Below, piece by piece: positions 876-63,769 of a stretch of 64,000 nt of DNA. The position numbers and the translations under genes are program-made. The notes under the pieces are model-generated. The model ran no database searches and had not been told where the DNA came from. It saw nothing but the letters and a program-made list of their open reading frames with translations. Source of the stretch: a virus. Within the stretch, counting starts at the first letter, position 1, and every line of letters starts with the position of its first letter. Where the stretch lies: positions 1 to 64,000 of the IMG/VR virus record IMGVR_UViG_3300042559_002699; one strand, 5' to 3'.

Positions 876-885
876 AATATACGGT
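876..885 (-). promoter_or_regulatory. Class A promoter-like motif ACCGTATATT
   Basis: Minus-strand ACCGTATATT ending 21 nt before the dCMP deaminase ATG. The same 10-mer recurs exactly at 38797-38806 and 39273-39282, with one change at 18274-18283, always just upstream of a start codon. Upstream there is a TTTG about 21 nt away, so TTTG / TATATTCTG could also be read as a degenerate Bacteroidota TTTG / TAnnTTTG promoter. Promoter function is inferred from recurrence and position. Confidence 0.5.
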
Positions 886-921
886 CGCCCAATTATCTAA
901 TCCAAAGAAATTTAAAAAAAA

Positions 922-8290: not shown

Positions 8291-8299
8291 GTATATATC
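8291..8299 (-). promoter_or_regulatory. Class B promoter motif before the sheath gene
   Basis: Minus-strand GATATATAC, 23 nt before the sheath ATG. A second copy, GATATATAAA, lies further upstream at 8338-8347. Confidence 0.45.
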
Positions 8300-13563: not shown

Positions 13564-13572
13564 TTATATATC
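13563..13572 (-). promoter_or_regulatory. Class B promoter motif before the neck gene
   Basis: Minus-strand GATATATAAG, 31 nt before the ATG of the gp14-like gene and directly followed by a small hairpin. Confidence 0.45.
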
Positions 13573-13583
13573 GTCAGAATAAA

Positions 13584-16500
13584 TTATCTTAGTAGGGTTA
13601 CCGTTCCTTCGTAATAATATACTTTACCATCATAAGCAGAAACCTTTACTCTCCAAACATAAACGTCTTGTTGTGAGTCTTCTCTTTTGTAGGTACCGTC
13701 CCAACCTTCATTTTTATCTTTAGTTTTCCATAGAATTTCTCCCCATCTATTAAACAACATAGCTTCGAATGTTTTTTCTCCGCTAACTGTAATGTAGAAT
13801 TTATTATTTCTATCAGGTCCTGTTCTTTCAGGACTAAACGCTGTTGGAGCAAAAACAATAACATCAGGACCTATAGTTAGTATATTTGAGGTTGAATCTA
13901 AACAAGTAACATCTTCATATGTAAAACTTGAAGTTAAGTTTACCCAATATCCTGAAGTGTCTGCTAGATAATTTTTAATTGGATTGATTTGAGTTGAAGT
14001 GTCTTCAGTATCAGGAAAGTCAAAAGACCATAAGTATTTAACACTATCTAATCCCCATCGAATCTGAGTTTGATTGATAAATTTAAATTTAGGAAATGCT
14101 ACTGTTGTAAAATTAGGTTCATTAATAAACTGAGCATCAGGTACAGGTAGTATTTTTATATAATCTTCTTTTGTTAATACACTCTGACAAACACCTCCAC
14201 CCCAATCATTTGTTACTATTAAAGTTACATCATACCAATTTCTATTAGCAGTATCATATTTAATATTAATTGGATTAGCTATGGTTGATATACCGTTATT
14301 ACCAAACTCCCATTCATATTTTATATTACTTAATGGTTTTCTAACTATTGAAGTAAAATCAACTCTACCTGGTTCACACTGAATTAATGGATTACCAATA
14401 AAATTAAATTGTGGTAACGGTTCTATAATTAATTGAATATCATCTTTAGCTGAAGGACAAACACCTTCTTCAACACTTTCCAAAGTAATTAAAACTCTAC
14501 CATTTCTAACATCTAATGATGTATCACCGATTCCATAATTATATAGTTGAATCAAATCATTACCTTGTCTTACAAATGATCCATCACCATTAGTTTTCCA
14601 AATAATATCTTTAACCCATTTTTTATCACCATTTAATATAAATTGTTTATCTTCACATTGTTGGTATGGATTAGAATTTAGTATATCAATCTGTGGTTGA
14701 GTTTGTATTAATATAAGATCTGCTGTAGTATCTGTACATTTGGTTATTGGGTTTGTATATTCAAATTTAACTCTATATTTTCCTTCATATTGTTTTGATT
14801 TAGGAGAAATACTTGGATCAAATTCATTTCCAACAACTCCTTCACCTGACCATTTACCTACATTTCCTCCGGGTTGTATACTTGTTAATTCTAATGTAGA
14901 TAAACTTGAACAAATAGTGTCAGGCAAATCTATTTTAACAATAGGTAAACCATTAACTACTACCTCTATACTATCCTCAACTAAACAACCACTTGAATTA
15001 TCAAATAATTTTATTAAATACTGTCCTGCTCCAGCAACTGATGGGTTGAATTTGTTTAATTTTATTGAGTTGTTTAAAGCATTTGATATAGTAGGATTTG
15101 ATTTATCTCTTGAATTTCTAAACTCAACAGTAGACCAAATTCCATCTACTAAAAACTTATCTGTGTTTCTATCTTTAGCATAGTTATTTAAATCTAACTC
15201 AGGAAAGTTAATACATTGACTAGGTATAAATTCAAATTGTATTTCAGGTAATTTAATAACGTCAATTATTACTGAATCACATGATTTACAACCTGAAACT
15301 GCATCTTGGAAACAATACTCTATTTCGTATTTACCTGTTTTTTGAGGTTCTTCAGGAGATCCGGGATCAAATAATGGCTTTGCAGGGATTGAATTATCCC
15401 AAAATATAATAAGATCGGGATTAACACCTGAACCATCAGGAACAGATAAACATCTAAATGTTTCTATACCACCAATTCTAGAGAACGGAGACACTATTAA
15501 AACGCTAAGATCTACTAAACTTTCTCCATATTGAGACCCTGATGTATTACCAGACCCATTTGTTGGGAGATAGGGTTTTTGACAAAATGATCTTTCTCTT
15601 AATTTAACTACAGGATTAGGATTTAATCTAATTGAATGACTACCTCTATTATAACATCCTTTTTTATCTCTATAATCATAACTAATTACATCAGTTAAAC
15701 CTGCTTTAGGTACTTGAGCGTTAGTAATGTAAATTGGAAAATTCCAAACAAAAGTATTTCTACCTACAGGACCACCTGTAATCCAACTTGGTGTTTTAGT
15801 TTGAAAGAATCTAATCGAGTCAGCAGGAATTGTTTTATTATTTGCAGTAGCAAAGTTAGCTAAATTTAAATTAATAGCACCATCTTGATAACATCTAGGT
15901 GGTAGTATTGTTGGAGTAAAGGCAGGTAATGGATTAACAGTTAAAGTAAATGTGTCTAAGTCTTCACAGATAACTCCTTTTTGATTAACTCTTAAAAGCA
16001 TTTCATATTTACGAGTCGCAAGTGTGGATATTCTTAAACTGAAAGCGCTATCAGTTGCCATAGTTGTACCAGAAATAATATCTCTCCAAGTAATTTGACG
16101 AGTGTATCCCAATGGCTTACGTTTAGATGTAACTTTTAAGGTATCAAAAATACAAATTTCTCTATCCCCTCCAGAAAGAGCTATAACTGTGTCATTGACA
16201 AATACCTCTATTGTATCAGTATCAAAACATTTGTAAACACTATCTAATACCTTAACTGAATACTTTTGAGAAGGGAATATTTTTTCGTATAAATTTACTA
16301 CAAGGGTACTTGATCCAATAATCGTAACTCCATTCGAACTCCATTCATACATTAGAGTATCTGCATTTTGAGCATCTAATGTAGCAAAATCATAAGTACA
16401 TATTCTTCGGTCAGGACCAAGGTCAACGATAGGATTTTTAATGTATTTAATCAAAATGGTATCAGAGTCTACACATTTATTTTTATCGGTAAGTCTAAGT

Positions 16501-18257
16501 GCAATCCGAGTCGTCTGAGTTGGTGTAATGGTAATTTTATTTAAAGTATCTGCAGGATTATGAGTTCCAACAGGCACTTCCCATCTAAATTTATAAGGAG
16601 CAAAACCATAAGCTACAATTGGTTCTACTGTTAATGAATTACCTGCACATATAAATGTGTCTTTACCAAAGGATAACTCAACATCTAATACAGGTGGTAT
16701 AATAATAGTATCTGAATAAATGGTTGGGCAATTGAACGGAGGATTATTGATTTCGTGTTCAATGATATATTTTCCACCACGTTTAAATTTAAAACTATCA
16801 GTTCTGTTAAAAGTCATAAAAAACGGAACACCGCTGTTTGTTGAATCTCTAATTACATATTTGTATCTATAGTTTTTAGGATTGTAGTTAACTGTATCTT
16901 TAGGAGTGGCTGTAAACTTTAATTTACCACAATCTAAAACGGTATACTTACGGGTATCTACAGCTCTAGGTGCAACAGTAATATTATAACCTCTATTAGC
17001 TGATGCTGGTTTGGGACAATTATCATCTTTGACTGTAACTGTAAATGAATAAGGATTAGGTCTAGCATCTCCAATTTTAGTAGTCCAACAAAATTCTGCT
17101 TCTCTTTCCCTAACATTTAAATTTACTATATTAAAAGTAGCACCTGGAATACCGTTGTTCCAAGTTAAAGTAGTAGTGTCTGCTCTTGTTTGATTAGGTA
17201 AAAACGGATCATCTTTTGTTTTAATTCTAAAACATATTTTTTCTCCTTCACATACAGAGTATTTGTTTTTAGAGTCAGGAAATGAAGGTGGGTTGTTATC
17301 AGGACATTGTTTAACAATAAGTTGCATATCCCGTCTTGTAAAACCGATTAGTATCCATTTATTAGTTGTAGAATCCTTTCTCCATTCATTAATTTGAATT
17401 ACTATAACTCCTACTTCATCACATTTTGTAGGTGTAAAAACAATATCACCTGTTTCTTTATCAAAATAAATACCTCTTGGTGGATTAGCATTAGGTAATG
17501 GTCTGCAATTAATAATTCCTGGATTTGGAGGACAATAAGGAGTCATTGGAATTTGAGAATTAAACCCACCAGCATAGTTTTCATTAGTGTTATGAGCGCT
17601 TAATGGAGTTGAAAGTTCATAAGATAAACTATCACCATCAGTAACTTCACGAACACCATTATTATATCTAAATGGTTGGTTACAACAAATATAAGCAACA
17701 GGAGGTATAGATAATTGAGGAGAAGTGTTACATTTTTTTTTAGTTTTAGCAATGTTACAGATGTTAATCATTGCATCAGTAAAGAAATTTCCGGGATTGA
17801 TAGTATTTATAGCATCGTTTCTACAACACTGTTCTACTTTAATTCTAATTTCACAACAACCTGCATCCTTTAAAGCTTTAAAAGGATCTGTATTAAAATC
17901 CATGATAGCTTCAAAAACATGTTCTTCAATACCTTCAGAAGTTACTGTAGTGTTTTCAGGATTACATGGCGCAGTACCTGAAGAACAATTTGGTGTAATG
18001 TCATTGATAGCTGTTCTTGTATATGTTATAGGAGTATTATTAGTAATACCACCATTTCCATCAACACAATAAGCACTAATTGTTGGGTTGTTAAATGAAA
18101 TACCTCTACAATCCCTATAGATTTTTATGAATAATTTATACTTACCTGGTGAAATACATTCATAGGAAATGTCTCCACCCATCATATGGGTAGCACTAGC
18201 TTTTGCAGGTAAGAACAAGAGCAAAGAAAGAAGCAGAAGTTTAAATAAGTTTTTCAT
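13584..18257 (-). CDS. Giant secreted PKD-type protein with gliding-motility (CHU_C/type IX secretion) C-terminal domain
   Basis: 1557 residues. Residues 1-22 are a classic signal peptide (K-rich start, Leu-rich core, ASA end). Next comes THMMGGDISYECI...YKLFIKIYRDCRG, the opening typical of large Bacteroidota surface proteins. The middle holds repeated Ig/PKD-like beta units with paired Cys. The last ~90 residues fit the CHU_C domain (TIGR04131-type): FAPTAFSPERTGPDRNN, FNRWGEILWKTKD, GWDGTY, VYVWRVK and GTVTLLR. In Bacteroidota this tail directs export by type IX secretion and surface attachment. Nothing marks it as a virion protein; display on the infected host or export from it is more likely. 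It lies between virion genes and a SET gene, under its own class A promoter. Confidence 0.88.
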   Translation of the reverse strand: MKNLFKLLLLSLLLFLPAKASATHMMGGDISYECISPGKYKLFIKIYRDCRGISFNNPTISAYCVDGNGGITNNTPITYTRTAINDITPNCSSGTAPCNPENTTVTSEGIEEHVFEAIMDFNTDPFKALKDAGCCEIRIKVEQCCRNDAINTINPGNFFTDAMINICNIAKTKKKCNTSPQLSIPPVAYICCNQPFRYNNGVREVTDGDSLSYELSTPLSAHNTNENYAGGFNSQIPMTPYCPPNPGIINCRPLPNANPPRGIYFDKETGDIVFTPTKCDEVGVIVIQINEWRKDSTTNKWILIGFTRRDMQLIVKQCPDNNPPSFPDSKNKYSVCEGEKICFRIKTKDDPFLPNQTRADTTTLTWNNGIPGATFNIVNLNVREREAEFCWTTKIGDARPNPYSFTVTVKDDNCPKPASANRGYNITVAPRAVDTRKYTVLDCGKLKFTATPKDTVNYNPKNYRYKYVIRDSTNSGVPFFMTFNRTDSFKFKRGGKYIIEHEINNPPFNCPTIYSDTIIIPPVLDVELSFGKDTFICAGNSLTVEPIVAYGFAPYKFRWEVPVGTHNPADTLNKITITPTQTTRIALRLTDKNKCVDSDTILIKYIKNPIVDLGPDRRICTYDFATLDAQNADTLMYEWSSNGVTIIGSSTLVVNLYEKIFPSQKYSVKVLDSVYKCFDTDTIEVFVNDTVIALSGGDREICIFDTLKVTSKRKPLGYTRQITWRDIISGTTMATDSAFSLRISTLATRKYEMLLRVNQKGVICEDLDTFTLTVNPLPAFTPTILPPRCYQDGAINLNLANFATANNKTIPADSIRFFQTKTPSWITGGPVGRNTFVWNFPIYITNAQVPKAGLTDVISYDYRDKKGCYNRGSHSIRLNPNPVVKLRERSFCQKPYLPTNGSGNTSGSQYGESLVDLSVLIVSPFSRIGGIETFRCLSVPDGSGVNPDLIIFWDNSIPAKPLFDPGSPEEPQKTGKYEIEYCFQDAVSGCKSCDSVIIDVIKLPEIQFEFIPSQCINFPELDLNNYAKDRNTDKFLVDGIWSTVEFRNSRDKSNPTISNALNNSIKLNKFNPSVAGAGQYLIKLFDNSSGCLVEDSIEVVVNGLPIVKIDLPDTICSSLSTLELTSIQPGGNVGKWSGEGVVGNEFDPSISPKSKQYEGKYRVKFEYTNPITKCTDTTADLILIQTQPQIDILNSNPYQQCEDKQFILNGDKKWVKDIIWKTNGDGSFVRQGNDLIQLYNYGIGDTSLDVRNGRVLITLESVEEGVCPSAKDDIQLIIEPLPQFNFIGNPLIQCEPGRVDFTSIVRKPLSNIKYEWEFGNNGISTIANPINIKYDTANRNWYDVTLIVTNDWGGGVCQSVLTKEDYIKILPVPDAQFINEPNFTTVAFPKFKFINQTQIRWGLDSVKYLWSFDFPDTEDTSTQINPIKNYLADTSGYWVNLTSSFTYEDVTCLDSTSNILTIGPDVIVFAPTAFSPERTGPDRNNKFYITVSGEKTFEAMLFNRWGEILWKTKDKNEGWDGTYKREDSQQDVYVWRVKVSAYDGKVYYYEGTVTLLR

Positions 18258-38796: not shown

Positions 38797-38806
38797 AATA
38801 TACGGT
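38797..38806 (-). promoter_or_regulatory. Class A promoter-like motif before the CAP gene
   Basis: Exact minus-strand ACCGTATATT, 23 nt before the ATG. Confidence 0.5.
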
Positions 38807-38813
38807 CCCAGTA

Positions 38814-39272: not shown

Positions 39273-39282
39273 AATATACGGT
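39273..39282 (-). promoter_or_regulatory. Class A promoter-like motif before the small secreted protein
   Basis: Exact minus-strand ACCGTATATT, 18 nt before the ATG; it touches the stop codon of the gene upstream. Confidence 0.5.
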
Positions 39283-39488
39283 TAGATATCTGATAGATTA
39301 GGATTCTTTCCTATACTTTTTAGATAATTCATAGAAGCTTGTCCCTGCCAATCCATCACATCAAAAGATTTAGGTTCACCCCAAACCTGTCCTTGTTCTG
39401 GTCTGATAGATGGGTCTACTCCTGCTACTTTATTCATAGCATCTAGTTTTCTTTTGATAGCTTCTAGGTATTCTTGATTTGGGATCAT
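39282..39488 (-). CDS. Small protein, unknown
   Basis: 68 residues (IPNQEYLEAIKRKLDAMNK... ending NPNLSDI). Soluble, helical start, no family recognised. The 147-bp gap between it and the next gene upstream (39489-39635) shows no terminator or ORF, only a weak TAAATAG just before this ATG. Confidence 0.55.
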   Translation of the reverse strand: MIPNQEYLEAIKRKLDAMNKVAGVDPSIRPEQGQVWGEPKSFDVMDWQGQASMNYLKSIGKNPNLSDI

Positions 39489-40873: not shown

Positions 40874-42982
40874 TTATTTTCCTAACAATTTAAGAATTTC
40901 CTCTTTAATAAGATCTCCTTTAACTGACATAGTTTTGGTTCCTACGCTTTCAACGTCTTCTCTTAGATCTTCTCCTTCGTCCATTTTATATAACTTCTTA
41001 AATCTTTCAATTGCAGAAGTTCCATCCTTCATTTTCTTACCAGATAGAGCTTTAACAATAGTTAAAACATAAGCAAGATCAGATTCTTTTACAAACCCAT
41101 CAAGAGCGTCTACTACTCCTTTAACTCCGTTTCTTCTATCTTTAAGAGCGTCTATGGAAGTTCCTAATACAGCTGCCGGTATTCCTGCAATTCCTAGAAA
41201 TGCTGCATACTTAGCTGCTGGAAGTATAGTATTAATAAAGGAAGATAGTCCTGAAGTTTCCCCTAATATATCTTCATCTGTCAAGGTTCCTTCTTCTTTA
41301 GCTTTACCTTTAGTTTCTGTATAAACTTCTTTTAGAAGATCCGCTAATATCTTATAAGACCATGGTCCTCTTACAGCTTTTGCATCATTTAATTTAGTTT
41401 GTTTTTTTGACTCACCTCTAGTGTCGTAAAGTCCTATTAAAGTATCTTCCCCTACAATCCCGTCCACGTTGAATCTATTAAGTTTTTGGAATTCCTTAAC
41501 TCTTGCTACAGTATCATCTGTGTATTTCTTTTCGTCTTCTTTTTGACCTACTATTCTATTGATCGCAACAACAACGTTACCAGTGTCTCCTTTCTTGTAT
41601 AGAAATTTTCCTCCGCTTTTACTTCCCCCACTTTTACTTCCTCCACCTGAAGTATTTTTAGAAGCAGATTTAGTTGCTGCTTCAACGTTAAATCCTTCGT
41701 TAATTCCTGCAAATCCTTCAAAAGTAAGTATTCTAGATTCTTTGATTTCTTCATTTTTCTTTAGCTCTGCAAAAAGTTCACCTGTAATATCAGAAGAATC
41801 TGAATCTTTAAGTCCGTAACCATCTTTTAGAATTTTTACCATTGATGCAGTAGCTGGACCAAATTTACCAGACGTTCCCATATTTTTGAATTGAGAAAGA
41901 CCTGAAATTCCTTTAACGTCCTTAAATTTGTCCATTACAAGCTTTTGGAATTCCATAACTTTAGGATTAGCTTCACCAGCTTTATCTTTATCGTATTTGA
42001 CGAAGGATGCTGCTTTTTCTTTTTGTAAAGCTTCTTCTTTTTTACCGAGATAAACAACTTCTTTATCTTTAGCTTCATCAACTAAACCTAATGCTTGAAC
42101 TAGGATTGCTGCTGCTTCTTTATTAGTAGTATCTTGCTTAAGCATTTTTTCTGCTGCTTGATCTGCTTCAGTTGGTATTTCTGCAAGTCTTGCCGCCGCT
42201 TTTTTGATATCGTCTTTACTAATTTCGCTATTCTTCTTCGCTAAAAGAGCTCCCATATCTGCTGAGATTTTAGTTACTTCGCTTTGAAGTCTCTTAACAT
42301 CAGCTTCCATTCCTGGAGTTTGTAAAAGGGATGCAAGCTTAGCATTAACTAGAGTTATCTGTTTAGAGATATCCCCGATCATTCCTTTTTTTCCTTCTAG
42401 AATTCCTTCGAAAATAAAATCAGATCCTTCATAGGAATTAGATTCATTTGCTAGTTTAGTTAAAGCTCCCTTAAGAGTATTAGCCTTAGATGAATCTTGA
42501 ATCCCTTTCAAGTAAGCATCAAGGCGGGCATTAACAAAATCGTTAATGTGTTTAAGCTCTTCTGGCTTGTCTTTATACTGATCAATCATTTTGCTAAGAG
42601 CTTCAGTTGCTTTTGTTCCTGCAGCAACCCAAGCATCTACTGCTTCTTTTGCTCCTTCTAAAGTGTTATCTGCTGAAGCAGCTTTAACTTTTTCCATGAT
42701 CTTTACCAGAGCTGCTGGTTTTTCTGTCGCTCCTACAGCTTTTACAGATGCAATGTCAGCATCTATATTCTGATCATAAGGTTTACTAGGAAATGATAAT
42801 TCTGAACTGTAAGAATTTAAAGCTGTGGTTATGATAAGACCTAACGTCTTGTCATAAAGTTTACTAGCCTCTGTTGCAGCTGGTGCTCCTGCTGCTGCCG
42901 GAGCTGCTTCTGCTTTTGGAGCTGCTGCAGCTTCTGCTTCGTAAATGAAGTTGAATGTGGAGAAGTCGTATACTTTTCTCAT
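40874..42982 (-). CDS. Large Ala/Lys-rich protein with peptidoglycan-binding domains
   Basis: 702 residues. The start RKVYDFSTFNFIYEAEAAA is leader-like, followed by an Ala/Pro linker. Residues ~40-330 are long helices rich in Ala, Lys and Glu. Two PG_binding_1-like regions follow: a weak one (VMEFQKLVMD...GKFGPATASMV) and a clear one at about 465-530 (KKGDTGNVVVAINRIV, DDTVARVKEFQKLNRFNVDGIVGEDTLIGLYDTRG), joined by a Gly/Ser/Lys linker. A hydrophobic segment (PAAKYAAFLGIAGIPAAVLG) lies near 600. This fits a virion protein that touches cell wall during entry. No catalytic lysozyme motif is visible. Confidence 0.7.
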   Translation of the reverse strand: MRKVYDFSTFNFIYEAEAAAAPKAEAAPAAAGAPAATEASKLYDKTLGLIITTALNSYSSELSFPSKPYDQNIDADIASVKAVGATEKPAALVKIMEKVKAASADNTLEGAKEAVDAWVAAGTKATEALSKMIDQYKDKPEELKHINDFVNARLDAYLKGIQDSSKANTLKGALTKLANESNSYEGSDFIFEGILEGKKGMIGDISKQITLVNAKLASLLQTPGMEADVKRLQSEVTKISADMGALLAKKNSEISKDDIKKAAARLAEIPTEADQAAEKMLKQDTTNKEAAAILVQALGLVDEAKDKEVVYLGKKEEALQKEKAASFVKYDKDKAGEANPKVMEFQKLVMDKFKDVKGISGLSQFKNMGTSGKFGPATASMVKILKDGYGLKDSDSSDITGELFAELKKNEEIKESRILTFEGFAGINEGFNVEAATKSASKNTSGGGSKSGGSKSGGKFLYKKGDTGNVVVAINRIVGQKEDEKKYTDDTVARVKEFQKLNRFNVDGIVGEDTLIGLYDTRGESKKQTKLNDAKAVRGPWSYKILADLLKEVYTETKGKAKEEGTLTDEDILGETSGLSSFINTILPAAKYAAFLGIAGIPAAVLGTSIDALKDRRNGVKGVVDALDGFVKESDLAYVLTIVKALSGKKMKDGTSAIERFKKLYKMDEGEDLREDVESVGTKTMSVKGDLIKEEILKLLGK

Positions 42983-43006: not shown

Positions 43007-43015
43007 CTATATATC
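43007..43015 (-). promoter_or_regulatory. Class B promoter motif before the peptidoglycan-binding gene
   Basis: Minus-strand GATATATAG, 24 nt before the ATG; a second copy lies 4 nt further upstream. Confidence 0.42.
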
Positions 43016-43238: not shown

Positions 43239-43254
43239 ATTAGTTTTTAAAGAG

Positions 43255-43339
43255 CGGAGAGGGAGGGATTCGAACCCCCGGAAGTGTGACCTTCAACAGT
43301 TTTCAAGACTGCCGCATTAGACCGCTCTGCCACCTCTCC
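43255..43339 (-). tRNA. tRNA-Ser (anticodon TGA)
   Basis: Minus-strand 85-nt cloverleaf: acceptor GGAGAGG (43339-43333) pairs with CCTCTCC (43262-43256), discriminator G; D arm GCAGAGCGG...; anticodon loop CTTGAAA with anticodon TGA; a long variable arm (GAAGGTCACACTTCC), as expected for serine; T loop TTCGAAT. No CCA is encoded. It reads UCA (and UCN by wobble), codons common in an AT-rich genome. Confidence 0.95.
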
Positions 43340-59927: not shown

Positions 59928-60227
59928 TTAAAAGAGAGATTTGACGTGTCTCAGAGCAACATCAAAAACGGAATTCTTAGGATCATTAGGCCAGTTACCA
60001 ACAAAGGCTAGCATCGAGGTAGCTTTTTTCTGAACCTCTTTTTCTGGAACTATGTTGCTCTTCTTGATTGCTGCAACCAATTCTTCTGCTAATTTCTTAC
60101 CGCTCTTATAAATGTCAGAGATTTTTTTATCTTCTGGAATGTTAAGAAGTTCGTGCATTAGATTCTTTCTTGTTCTTGATTCGTTTAAAGATTCGGTGAA
60201 AGATTCATAGAGTGCTAGATTTTTCAT
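59928..60227 (-). CDS. Small protein with T4-internal-protein-like leader, unknown
   Basis: 99 residues. The start KNLALYESFTESLNESR closely matches the start of the next gene (KNIILYEEFSDGLNRLR) and resembles the capsid-targeting tag of T4 internal proteins, KTYQEFIAEA. The rest is a small helical body (LAEELVAAIKKSNIVPEKEVQKKA...). Possibly a packaged protein injected with DNA. Overlaps the methyltransferase gene by 4 bp. Confidence 0.6.
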   Translation of the reverse strand: MKNLALYESFTESLNESRTRKNLMHELLNIPEDKKISDIYKSGKKLAEELVAAIKKSNIVPEKEVQKKATSMLAFVGNWPNDPKNSVFDVALRHVKSLF

Positions 60228-61090
60228 TTTTCAAAATTTTTATTTTCTATAATCATTTTAGCATGTGTAGTGTGCTTAATGTCTACATCGAAGTCCTTTT
60301 TGACTTCTTTTTTTAGATAGGGAAGAACAAAATTATCTTCAAAAATAATTTCATATCCCGGAGGTATTTTCTTGTATAGAGTTTCAAGAGAAAGAGGAAG
60401 ATAGTTTTCTGCTACTTCTCTAGTCCAGTTATCTGTGAATTTATATTTTAGTAAAAAGTGAGCTAAGAATTTATAGCTGCTTCCAATATCATCCCACTTT
60501 TCTTCGTAAGACTTTAAGTATTTTGGATCTGCCGCAGATTTAACTTTGTCAACATCGTCCTGGAATTCGGATGCTTCTTTTCTACTCATTTCAACAGAAG
60601 GAATCATGTCTCTGATTACTATCCATTTAAAGTCTCCACCAAATACTCTATCCTCCCAGAATTTTTTAACTTCTTTAGGATGAGAATAAGAATAAACTTC
60701 GTGAATTACCGAAGATAATACAAGAGCTGGTTTATCATAAGATTCCAATTCAGATTGAACCTCACTCCAAGAATCGGTTAATAAAACGTCTGGTCCTAGT
60801 TTAGCTCTTGCTTTAGCAAGCATAGCTTTACTAAGATCGTATCCTATCAATTTAACATCTGGATTTTTCTCCTTCATCTTGGAAAGGATCGTTCCGTCTG
60901 CACACCCAAAATCTACGATAACATCCGGATTTATAATATCTAAAAAGAATAATTTATCCGGATAGGATGCTTCCATATTTCGGTTATAAACCTCTATGTT
61001 AGCAATAGGATTTGATTCTAGAGATTCGAAAATCGATCTCAAACGGTTCAATCCGTCGGAAAATTCCTCATATAGAATTATATTTTTCAA
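60224..61090 (-). CDS. SAM-dependent methyltransferase with targeting-type leader
   Basis: 288 residues. After a leader (KNIILYEEFSDGLNRLR, ~25 residues), a class I methyltransferase follows: DVIVDFGCADGTILSKM (motif I), KLIGYDLSKAMLAKARAKLG (motif post-I), ALVLSSVIHEVYSYSHP (motif II) and FKWIVIRDMIP (motif III). Domain order suits a small-molecule, tRNA or protein methylase; the target is unknown. If the leader is a packaging tag, this enzyme would enter the host with the DNA. Confidence 0.82.
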   Translation of the reverse strand: MKNIILYEEFSDGLNRLRSIFESLESNPIANIEVYNRNMEASYPDKLFFLDIINPDVIVDFGCADGTILSKMKEKNPDVKLIGYDLSKAMLAKARAKLGPDVLLTDSWSEVQSELESYDKPALVLSSVIHEVYSYSHPKEVKKFWEDRVFGGDFKWIVIRDMIPSVEMSRKEASEFQDDVDKVKSAADPKYLKSYEEKWDDIGSSYKFLAHFLLKYKFTDNWTREVAENYLPLSLETLYKKIPPGYEIIFEDNFVLPYLKKEVKKDFDVDIKHTTHAKMIIENKNFEK

Positions 61091-61092
61091 AT

Positions 61093-61287
61093 TTAATTTA
61101 TCTCGGACGTACGGATAGATTGCCTATACTTTGCGTCTCTTATTTGATTTCTTCTTCTCACAGATGGTTTGGTGAATTCTCTTCTCTCGTTAAGTTCGTC
61201 TTTTGTCTTACGTTCAGAAAATTTATTTTTTAGCTTCTTTAAAGCTGAATCCAGAGATTTCTCCTTCTTTAAATCTATAAAAATCAT
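61093..61287 (-). CDS. rpsU: Ribosomal protein bS21 homolog
   Basis: 64 residues, the full size of bS21. KSLDSALKKLKNKFSERKTKDEL and FTKPSVRRRNQIRDAKYRQSI reproduce the family pattern (ESLdsALkrfkrk... then kPSv.Rr......), and Tyr54 falls where Bacteroidota bS21 has the tyrosine recalled to contact the 16S rRNA 3' tail. bS21 sits at the mRNA exit channel of the 30S subunit and affects initiation. Phage copies probably replace host bS21 on ribosomes. No Shine-Dalgarno sequence precedes the ATG. Confidence 0.9.
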   Translation of the reverse strand: MIFIDLKKEKSLDSALKKLKNKFSERKTKDELNERREFTKPSVRRRNQIRDAKYRQSIRTSEIN

Positions 61288-61297
61288 GCTCTATATA

Positions 61298-63427
61298 TTA
61301 CTCTTCTGAGCCCTTTTTTGGATTTGTGATTCTTACCTTTACTGGGGGTTCGATCTCAGCATCTTTGGAAGAATCTAGGGATAGAGTAATCTTAGAACCT
61401 GATTCAACTTTCTTTTGGATAAAGAGCTCTGCAATAGTGTCTTCGATATATTTTTGAAGAAGTCTTTTCAGAGGTCTTGCTCCAAATTTGGGGTCATATC
61501 CTCTTTCTGCTATCTTTTCTTTTAGATCCTTAGAGATGACTAATTTAAACCCTAGATCTTCAAATCTCGGAGTCATCTTTTTAATTTCAACGTCTATAAT
61601 CTTAATTAGATCATCTTGAGTTAGAGAATTAAAGTTTATAATTTCATCTATTCTGTTTAGAAATTCCGGAGAGAAAGTTTTTTCCAATTCTTTTCTGATC
61701 GTGATCTTTGATTCTTTTTCCACATTGCTCTTATCTAAAGATTTGAATCCTACACCTCCTCCAAATTCGGCAGCCTTTCTTTGACCAACGTTAGAAGTCA
61801 AGATGATTAAACAATTTTTAAAATTAATCTTTCTTCCTAATCCATCGGTAATCATACCCTCGTCTAGAATTTGTAATAGAGAGTTGAAAATATCCGGATG
61901 GGCCTTTTCAATCTCGTCAAATAGAACTACTGAATATGGCTTTCTTCTAACTTTCTCTGTTAATTGACCACCATCTTCGTGTCCAACATATCCTGGAGGA
62001 GCTCCAATCAATTTGGTTGAATTGAATTTCTCCATGTACTCGGACATATCAACTCTAATCATTGCATCGGCATCACCGAATACCATTTTAGCCAATTCCT
62101 TAGCCAATTGGGTTTTACCAACTCCGGTAGGTCCTAGAAAAACAAATGATCCGATTGGACGATTTGGGTCTTTTAAACCGATTCTATTTCTTAAAATTGC
62201 CTTTGATATTTTTTCAACTGCTTCATTTTGTCCAATAACTCTATCTCTTAAAGCTTCAGCCATTTTAGCAAGTCTTTCGTTTTCGTCCTGACTGATCTTT
62301 TGTAGAGGAATCCCAGTCATCAAAGAAACTACTTCAGCAACTTTTTCACCGTCTACGATTTTCTTCTTCTCTTTTAGCTTTTGCTCCCAGGCTTTAGTTT
62401 CCGATTCGATGCCAGCTTTAATCTTTCTTTCCAGATCTCTATATTTGGCAGCTCCTTCATAGTCCTGTTTGGTAACACACTTCTTTTTCTCCTCTGTAGT
62501 TTTCTCTAGATTCTTCTCTAAATTAACCAATGCATCAGGAACCTTAACTTGGGTTAATTGAGATCTGCTACCCGCTTCGTCTAAAGCATCTAGAGCTTTG
62601 TCTGGGAAGTTTCTGTCGGTAATGTATCTTTCTGTTAACTTAACACAATTGATGATAGCATCGTCAGTGTATTGAACATTATGATGATCCTCGTACTTAG
62701 CCTTGATATTGTTTAGAATTATAATTGTCTCGTCTGCAGTTGGAGCTTCAATGATAACTTTTTGAAATCTTCTTTCTAGTGCTCCGTCTTTCTCGATATA
62801 CTGTCTATATTCATTTAGAGTTGTTGCTCCAACACATTGAAATTCCCCTCTTGCTAGTGCAGGTTTTACCATGTTAGAAGCATCCAAAGATCCTGATGAA
62901 CCACCGGCACCAACTAGAGTGTGCAATTCATCGATGAAAATAATTACATCTGGATTTTTTCTTAGCTCATCCATAATGGACTTCATTCTCTCTTCAAACT
63001 GACCCCTGTATTTAGTTCCGGCAACAATTAGACCCATATCCAAACTAACTACTCTCTTATTTAGTAGATTTCTAGAAACCTTTCTTTGGAAAATTCTAAG
63101 TGCTAGTCCTTCGGCAATTGCTGATTTACCAACCCCGGGTTCCCCTATTAGAACTGGATTGTTCTTTTTCCTACGACCTAGAATTTGAGAAACTCTTTCG
63201 ATCTCAGAATCTCTTCCTACAATTGGATCAAGTTCTCCCTTTGCAGCTAGAGCTGTTAAATCCCTGCTAAAAGAATCTAGGGCAGGAGTGGTTGAAGAGG
63301 TTGGATTAGATTTGTAGCTTGGAACATCATCAATATCATCGTCATCGATAGGTCCCATTGAAATTTTAGGAGGAGTGTATAAGATATCTCCCAATAAGTT
63401 CTCTCCAATTATATTGTTTTCAGTCAT
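61298..63427 (-). CDS. ClpC-like AAA+ unfoldase lacking the N domain
   Basis: 709 residues with two AAA+ modules. D1: GEPGVGKS at 95-102, IIFIDELHTLVG at 162-173, GATTLNEYR. Middle: a short UVR-like coiled segment at ~308-340 (TKQDYEGAAKYRDLE), as in ClpC. D2: GPTGVGKT at 432-439, VLFDEIEKAHPD, ILTSNVG, then ARPLKRLLQKYIE. The N-terminal ~60 residues are not the double Clp_N repeat but a short acidic tail. A GVGF at 558-561 stands at the ClpP-contact loop, so it may use host ClpP. Likely role: remodelling or degrading host or phage proteins. Confidence 0.92.
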   Translation of the reverse strand: MTENNIIGENLLGDILYTPPKISMGPIDDDDIDDVPSYKSNPTSSTTPALDSFSRDLTALAAKGELDPIVGRDSEIERVSQILGRRKKNNPVLIGEPGVGKSAIAEGLALRIFQRKVSRNLLNKRVVSLDMGLIVAGTKYRGQFEERMKSIMDELRKNPDVIIFIDELHTLVGAGGSSGSLDASNMVKPALARGEFQCVGATTLNEYRQYIEKDGALERRFQKVIIEAPTADETIIILNNIKAKYEDHHNVQYTDDAIINCVKLTERYITDRNFPDKALDALDEAGSRSQLTQVKVPDALVNLEKNLEKTTEEKKKCVTKQDYEGAAKYRDLERKIKAGIESETKAWEQKLKEKKKIVDGEKVAEVVSLMTGIPLQKISQDENERLAKMAEALRDRVIGQNEAVEKISKAILRNRIGLKDPNRPIGSFVFLGPTGVGKTQLAKELAKMVFGDADAMIRVDMSEYMEKFNSTKLIGAPPGYVGHEDGGQLTEKVRRKPYSVVLFDEIEKAHPDIFNSLLQILDEGMITDGLGRKINFKNCLIILTSNVGQRKAAEFGGGVGFKSLDKSNVEKESKITIRKELEKTFSPEFLNRIDEIINFNSLTQDDLIKIIDVEIKKMTPRFEDLGFKLVISKDLKEKIAERGYDPKFGARPLKRLLQKYIEDTIAELFIQKKVESGSKITLSLDSSKDAEIEPPVKVRITNPKKGSEE

Positions 63428-63476: not shown

Positions 63477-63737
63477 TTAGGATCTAATCCAGGAATTTAC
63501 TTCCTCTTGGGTTGGGTATCCAATATCTGCTTGACACAGATCACAAACTTTCTTCACAGAAAAATTATTATTTCCATGGATGTTAAAATTTTTAACCGTG
63601 TAGTCTGGATGAGGACAAGCAGATTGGATAGCTTCTAATTCCTTTTCTAGAGATTTTATATTTGTGATTATTCTATCTGTAGTATTAAAGACTTCTTGCG
63701 GATTGGAAAAATCAAGATCTGGTTTGTTTAATTCCAT
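63477..63737 (-). CDS. Small Cys-containing protein, unknown
   Basis: 86 residues. A helical start (EVFNTTDRIITNIKSLEKELEAIQ) is followed by CPHPDY and KVCDLCQADIGYP, giving a possible zinc ribbon (C...H...C-x-x-C). No family recognised. It lies 32 bp before the next gene on the same strand, between the ClpC-like and RNase H-like genes. Confidence 0.65.
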   Translation of the reverse strand: MELNKPDLDFSNPQEVFNTTDRIITNIKSLEKELEAIQSACPHPDYTVKNFNIHGNNNFSVKKVCDLCQADIGYPTQEEVNSWIRS

Positions 63738-63769
63738 AGTTTTTTAATGGATTTAAACTATATATTCCC

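Follow-up and report, generated by a model that had tools for sequence, protein, structure and literature searches.

In the genome of a large myovirus, we identified a divergent homolog of the ribosomal protein bS21 that retains Tyr54, the residue linked to sequestration of the anti-Shine-Dalgarno (anti-SD) sequence in the 3' tail of 16S rRNA, and that is encoded by a gene without a Shine-Dalgarno (SD) sequence of its own. We favour, with a probability of roughly 55%, the interpretation, also the most parsimonious one, that this protein is a working paralog that replaces or supplements the bS21 of the host and keeps the ribosomes SD-blind. Under this scenario, the phage bS21 would be made, probably late in the infection of a Bacteroidia host, from an operon that also encodes an unfoldase and a methyltransferase, and would take or share the place of the host protein on the 30S subunit. 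With Tyr54 and the invariant core of the protein kept, the 16S rRNA tail would stay sequestered, and the ribosomes would remain efficient on the SD-less mRNAs that are common to the host and the phage.

The analysed stretch of DNA (hereafter, the window) comprises 64,000 nucleotides, positions 1-64,000 of IMG/VR record IMGVR_UViG_3300042559_002699, the full length of which is 89,451 bp. The record contains tail sheath, T4-type terminase and neck-like genes and thus represents a myovirus; the bS21 gene lies about 51 kb from the terminase gene. The 89-kb record may be part of a larger, jumbo genome. A second, independent IMG/VR record (89,516 bp) matches it with 100% identity across the 7 kb around bS21 that were compared, the bS21 gene included, so this gene is not an artefact of a single assembly. 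Beside the virion genes, a 1,557-aa protein (13584-18257, minus strand) carries at its C-terminus a CHU_C type IX secretion domain (PF13585, 32.6 bits against a cut-off of 27) and also has a weak PKD match. This sorting domain is of the Bacteroidota type and so points to a host from that phylum, an assignment that the SD-less, A-rich gene starts and the Tyr54-containing bS21 also support. The sole tRNA gene in the window is a tRNA-Ser(TGA) gene (43254-43339, minus strand).

The initial annotation placed a phage bS21 at 61093-61287 and a tyrosine at its position 54, and both assignments hold. The open reading frame on the minus strand occupies exactly these positions and encodes a 64-aa rpsU-like product (MIFIDLKKEKSLDSALKKLKNKFSERKTKDELNERREFTKPSVRRRNQIRDAKYRQSIRTSEIN) that scores 41.3 bits for the Pfam family Ribosomal_S21 (PF01165; cut-off, 27) and is the only match to this family in the whole record; an in-frame stop two codons 5' of the ATG makes the start secure. 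In a phmmer search against PDB sequences, the best match was chain 7jil_z, bS21 of Flavobacterium johnsoniae, aligned without gaps over residues 1-61, so Tyr54 (codon TAT, 61126..61128, minus strand) is in register with the host protein. The overall identity to F. johnsoniae bS21 is 39%, and the invariant core residues L16, K20, K22, K40, R46 and A52 are all kept. The AlphaFold2 model consists of two helices (residues 12-36 and 41-63; pLDDT about 94-95 over residues 41-60), as in other bS21 proteins, with residue 54 in the C-terminal one; a Foldseek search with this model gave no useful match, perhaps because the structure is an extended helical pair.

Conservation of position 54

The role of Tyr54 as an anti-SD contact, from which the initial annotation had started, is correct: in F. 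johnsoniae, Tyr54 of bS21 stacks on A1534, and the Y54A replacement raises translation of a strong-SD reporter, as does C-terminal truncation of bS21 for strong-SD mRNA (McNutt et al. 2023, PMC9976891). The retention of this residue in phage proteins is already in print and is not new, an aromatic residue, mostly tyrosine, having been found at position 54 in 61 of 61 bS21 proteins of Bacteroidetes phages, along with divergent C-termini and with the stacking on A1534 noted (Chen et al. 2022, PMC9723584). To assess the specificity of this conservation, we used single-protein queries to collect from IMG/VR 109 non-redundant loci that encode a Bacteroidia-type bS21. With identical proteins removed and examples from huge phages and from an SD-pattern scan added, these gave a set of 50 distinct proteins. 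Position 54 is tyrosine in 44 of these and histidine in 6 (entropy 0.53 bit), and the flanking positions 53 and 55 vary (2.4 and 2.1 bits, respectively), so the conservation is specific. In the same set, 49 of 50 proteins retain Q56, and A52 and R46 are invariant. The window protein, with its Tyr54, shares the aromatic residue of the Bacteroidia-type bS21; another group of phage bS21 (L032-L043) has Arg, Ser or Ala at this position. Among hosts, Tyr54 marks the class Bacteroidia: it is present in 43 of 50 hosts drawn evenly from this class (Tyr or His in 46), compared with 31 of 109 distinct host genes in a phylum-level sample, where Arg is dominant. The different C-terminal tail (IRTSEIN) to which the initial annotation had drawn attention is as described but is not special, given that residues 57-64 are variable throughout the phage and host bS21 proteins.

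At two other positions, the window protein stands alone: K25E and K51D are charge reversals that are each unique to it among the 50 distinct phage proteins, in which position 25 is Lys in 47 and position 51 is Lys in 46. With such replacements at well-kept positions, contacts with rRNA could be changed, which counts against the favoured reading. Phylogenetic analysis of bS21 (87 rows and only 64 columns, so few that the deep order is unsure) paired the window protein with that of a 123-kb IMG/VR record (locus L003) with support of 99/97, and both fell outside the main clade of 40 (99/96). The two proteins are 55-56% identical, and the core residues are kept in the second one as well.

Shine-Dalgarno signals and the control of bS21 synthesis

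We measured SD strength as pairing to CACCUCCUUUCU over the last 20-22 nucleotides before the start codon. The 22 nucleotides that precede the bS21 start (61288..61309, minus strand) contain no SD (-3.3 kcal/mol). Among the 103 predicted genes of the 89,451-bp record, none has a strong SD (-9 kcal/mol or stronger) and 5 reach -6 kcal/mol or stronger, compared with 3.6% in shuffled upstream sequences; the upstream regions are A-rich. The remark in the initial annotation that few genes have an SD therefore applies to the record as a whole. An alternative anti-SD of the UCUCA type yields no SD either, with TGAGA found within 20 nucleotides upstream in 0 of 103 genes. One locus listed as viral in IMG/VR (L009) is likely host DNA and was excluded: both the bS21 gene and the sequence that precedes it match the bacterial loci L273 and L275, with TGAGA before rpsU.

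The initial annotation further proposed that swapping in the phage subunit could alter which mRNAs are read in infected cells. At the SD step, the retained Tyr54 argues for the opposite: it predicts a sequestered anti-SD tail, and the swap would thus preserve the SD-blind mode of the host, which suits the SD-less phage mRNAs. We found no sign of altered selectivity in the sequence; if there is any, its source would need to be sought in the divergent N-terminal helix or elsewhere in the protein. This is the essence of the model of Chen et al., in which the N-terminal helix of phage bS21 makes a specialised ribosome that shifts mRNA selection toward phage transcripts, and which, for the window phage, we regard as possible but doubtful. 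The N-terminal region of phage bS21 diverges from that of hosts, with the divergent positions mapping near the mRNA path (PMC9723584), and the window protein, which carries the two charge reversals, also differs in this region (N21, E25, R26, K27). However, with SD strength equal to that in shuffled sequences and with A-rich upstream regions, there is no positive start-site signal for such a ribosome to read, and the window protein retains the host-like F23 and T28, that is, two of the four positions that Chen et al. called divergent. Another alternative is that the phage merely keeps bS21 available after host expression stops, leaving the properties of the ribosome unchanged. The retention of the key residues and the absence of an SD, as in the other genes of the phage, agree with such a supply role, but the strong divergence from every host bS21, together with the private charge changes, suggests more, and we consider this alternative improbable.

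In F. johnsoniae, ribosomes whose bS21 lacks its C-terminus are poor at initiating on SD-less mRNA but do better on rpsU, a gene that is autoregulated via an extended SD (McNutt et al. 2023, PMC9976891). The window gene possesses neither a strong nor an extended SD, so its output would be independent of bS21-deficient ribosomes, unlike that of Flavobacterium rpsU. Under the replacement scenario, if the host has such a feedback loop, the phage copy would stand outside it and would help silence the host rpsU. All 80 Flavobacterium-type host rpsU genes have an SD of -13 kcal/mol or stronger, and 23 of the 31 Tyr54-encoding rpsU genes in the phylum sample have an SD; among the Tyr54-encoding genes drawn evenly from the class Bacteroidia, only 7 of 43 reach -9 kcal/mol or stronger. 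We therefore rejected the general contrast that phage bS21 genes have lost the SD of the host: the absence of the SD is informative only if the host of the window phage belongs to an SD-bearing order, and this host may lack the feedback loop altogether, which counts against the favoured reading.

Not all phage bS21 genes are SD-less. In 12 of the 109 phage loci, AGGAGG (-12.2 kcal/mol) precedes bS21, and all 12 belong to a single nested subclade of the Chen type, which suggests that the SD was gained inside phages. A pattern scan of IMG/VR detected two further AGGAGG-bearing loci (L421 and L434). The SDs of phage bS21 genes, at -11 to -13.5 kcal/mol (for example, L194, L206 and L221), are weaker than those of Flavobacterium rpsU. 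In genome G160 (76.6 kb; L421, L448), bS21 is alone among 95 genes in having an SD of -9 kcal/mol or stronger, and the same holds for G162 (L455; 120 of 166 kb read), with 99 genes; in G161 (L434, L453), the bS21 SD is the strongest among 62 genes, with two more at -9 kcal/mol or stronger, both downstream of bS21. As L421 and L434 came from the pattern scan, only the lack of SDs on their other genes is informative, whereas G162 was found by protein similarity. LR756501 was left out of this comparison because many of its other starts score high, apparently owing to repeated coding sequence. Phage bS21 genes thus exist in two regulatory states: most, including the window gene, are SD-less, and AGGAGG is present in at least two lineages. 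The position of bS21 as the sole strong-SD gene in G160 and G162 resembles that of rpsU in Flavobacterium; in a literature search confined to open papers, we found no earlier report of an SD-bearing phage bS21.

Very tentatively, we propose that phage bS21 is wired into or out of the host feedback loop, such that SD-less copies would bypass the loop and, by restoring bS21 to ribosomes deficient in it, switch off host rpsU, and SD-bearing copies would exploit such deficient ribosomes for on-demand production. The two states would then be predicted to respond oppositely to bS21 depletion in Flavobacterium. If the replacement scenario is true, these phages would take control of a ribosomal switch by which hosts detect a lack of bS21.

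The ClpC-bS21-methyltransferase neighbourhood

The bS21 gene is part of an operon-like run of codirectional genes on the minus strand. The presumed first gene (63477..63737) encodes an 86-aa protein and is followed by the gene for a 709-aa ClpC-type AAA+ unfoldase (61298..63427), recognised by domain matches and alignment with ClpC, which ends 10 nucleotides before bS21. Downstream, a class I methyltransferase (60224..61090; PF08242, 34.5 bits) starts with TTG 2 nucleotides past the bS21 stop, and a 99-aa protein of no family (59928..60227) comes next. The sequence AATATATA (63759..63766, minus strand), 22-29 nucleotides before the start of the 86-aa gene, is a candidate promoter of this operon, given its resemblance to GATATATA. 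The latter motif is recurrent in the record, often 27-46 nucleotides before starts, including those of the tail sheath and neck genes (window copies at 8292-8299, 13565-13572 and 43008-43015, minus strand, and others), and is a possible late promoter. Another motif, ACCGTATA (mostly GACCGTATATT), is present 10 times in the 89 kb, always on the minus strand (window positions 877-886, 38798-38807 and 39274-39283, with seven more between 76107 and 87932 of the record); nine of the 10 sit 26-56 nucleotides before a predicted start, with about none expected in shuffled upstream sequences, and so this motif likely defines a phage-specific promoter class. The Bacteroidota-type promoter pair TTTG-N17-21-TAnnTTTG was not found in the 150-nucleotide upstream regions of the genes in the record.

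The window ClpC contains both AAA+ domains, the M-domain/UVR motif and a VGF loop, which we take to be a ClpP-docking-like loop. A search for the Clp_N domain gave no match, and residue 43 of the phage protein aligns to ClpC residue 156. Compared with ClpC of Staphylococcus and Bacillus (6EM8, 3J3T), the phage protein is alike in the AAA+ domains, the M-domain and the GF loop but starts at about residue 156, with an unrelated 42-residue leader in place of the N-domain.

Conceivably, this unfoldase and the host ClpP could form an exchange machine that removes the host bS21 so that the phage copy moves in; a phage-encoded protease acting against host bS21 has been the subject of speculation (McNutt et al., PMC9976891). 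The gene order and the VGF loop, suggestive of ClpP docking, fit this idea. The same ClpC-bS21 order is found in the L003 record, where the spacing is 39 nucleotides (ClpC 78% and bS21 56% identical), with homologs of the 86-aa protein upstream of Clp and of the 99-aa protein beside bS21. However, among the 80 phage ClpC loci fetched as nearest relatives, none had bS21 within the flank, and the closest sister locus (L326; ClpC 70% identical) has the same flanks with an empty site, so bS21 looks to have been gained in, or lost from, one branch; in addition, three related jumbo phages carry the two genes far apart. We therefore rejected a conserved ClpC-bS21 pairing. The Clp N-domain, which usually recruits substrates, is absent from the window protein; no ClpP gene is present in the window record or in G003; and ribosomes devoid of bS21 would favour SD-bearing mRNA, which the window phage lacks. 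On balance, we consider the exchange machine unlikely.

Chaperone and unfoldase genes adjoin bS21 elsewhere, too. In an unrelated phage group (L033-L043), ClpX abuts or overlaps bS21, with DnaK and/or Hsp20 coming next and, in some cases, a ClpS-like gene, with ClpP present in the three contigs checked; in jumbo phages related through ClpC (L406-L408, L410), a DnaJ-like gene follows bS21 directly or closely. Neighbours of this kind in three phage groups speak for the exchange machine and fit a link to proteostasis, for which the ClpC side failed the conservation check.

The N-termini of the methyltransferase (LKNIILYEEF) and the 99-aa protein (MKNLALYESF) resemble the T4 capsid-targeting sequence, as do those encoded at 40874-42982 of the window (minus strand) and in L321 and L322. 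Under a loose pattern, such starts are found in 11% of the proteins here and 31% in the G003 stretch, compared with 4-6% for one shuffled start, and could mark virion-packaged proteins. We think it very improbable that bS21 itself has a non-ribosomal or virion-borne role or is a decaying passenger gene: the two downstream genes with capsid-targeting-like starts and the sister phage without bS21 are compatible with this, but bS21 has no such N-terminus, and its core residues are intact here and in L003.

Comparison with known bS21 systems

The closest precedent is the huge-phage bS21 described by Chen et al. (PMC9723584), who proposed that it is substituted into Bacteroidetes ribosomes late in infection, in keeping with transcription together with late structural genes in related systems. 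The window bS21 resembles these proteins in family, in the aromatic residue at position 54 (mostly Tyr) and in the divergent C-terminus, and its source, like theirs, is a myovirus of an apparent Bacteroidota host with most genes lacking an SD; taken alone, it mainly adds one more, and more divergent, case to a phenomenon already in print. New here are the clade formed by the window and L003 proteins, the specificity of position 54 over 50 proteins and the two SD states of phage bS21. In contrast to Chen clades a-e, in which bS21 resides in the head-gene region on the opposite strand, the window gene belongs to a codirectional run, and its product lies outside the main clade, paired with L003 instead. 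It is further set apart by K25E and K51D and by F23 and T28, positions occupied by V23 and Q28 in most relatives of the Chen type.

With F. johnsoniae bS21 (7JIL; PMC9976891), the phage protein shares the length of 64 aa, the ungapped alignment, Tyr54 and the conserved core, but not most of the remaining sequence, and the SD of about -19 kcal/mol of the host rpsU contrasts with the weak pairing before the phage gene. The phage-encoded bS21 of Pelagibacter phage HTVC008M, the one viral bS21 tested in this way, has been shown to enter Escherichia coli ribosomes, leaving them about 5% active (PMC6375957), a result that, by analogy, speaks for incorporation of the window protein but against the favoured reading of a working replacement. 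The HTVC008M protein, however, was acquired from a different, alphaproteobacterial host lineage, unlike the window bS21.
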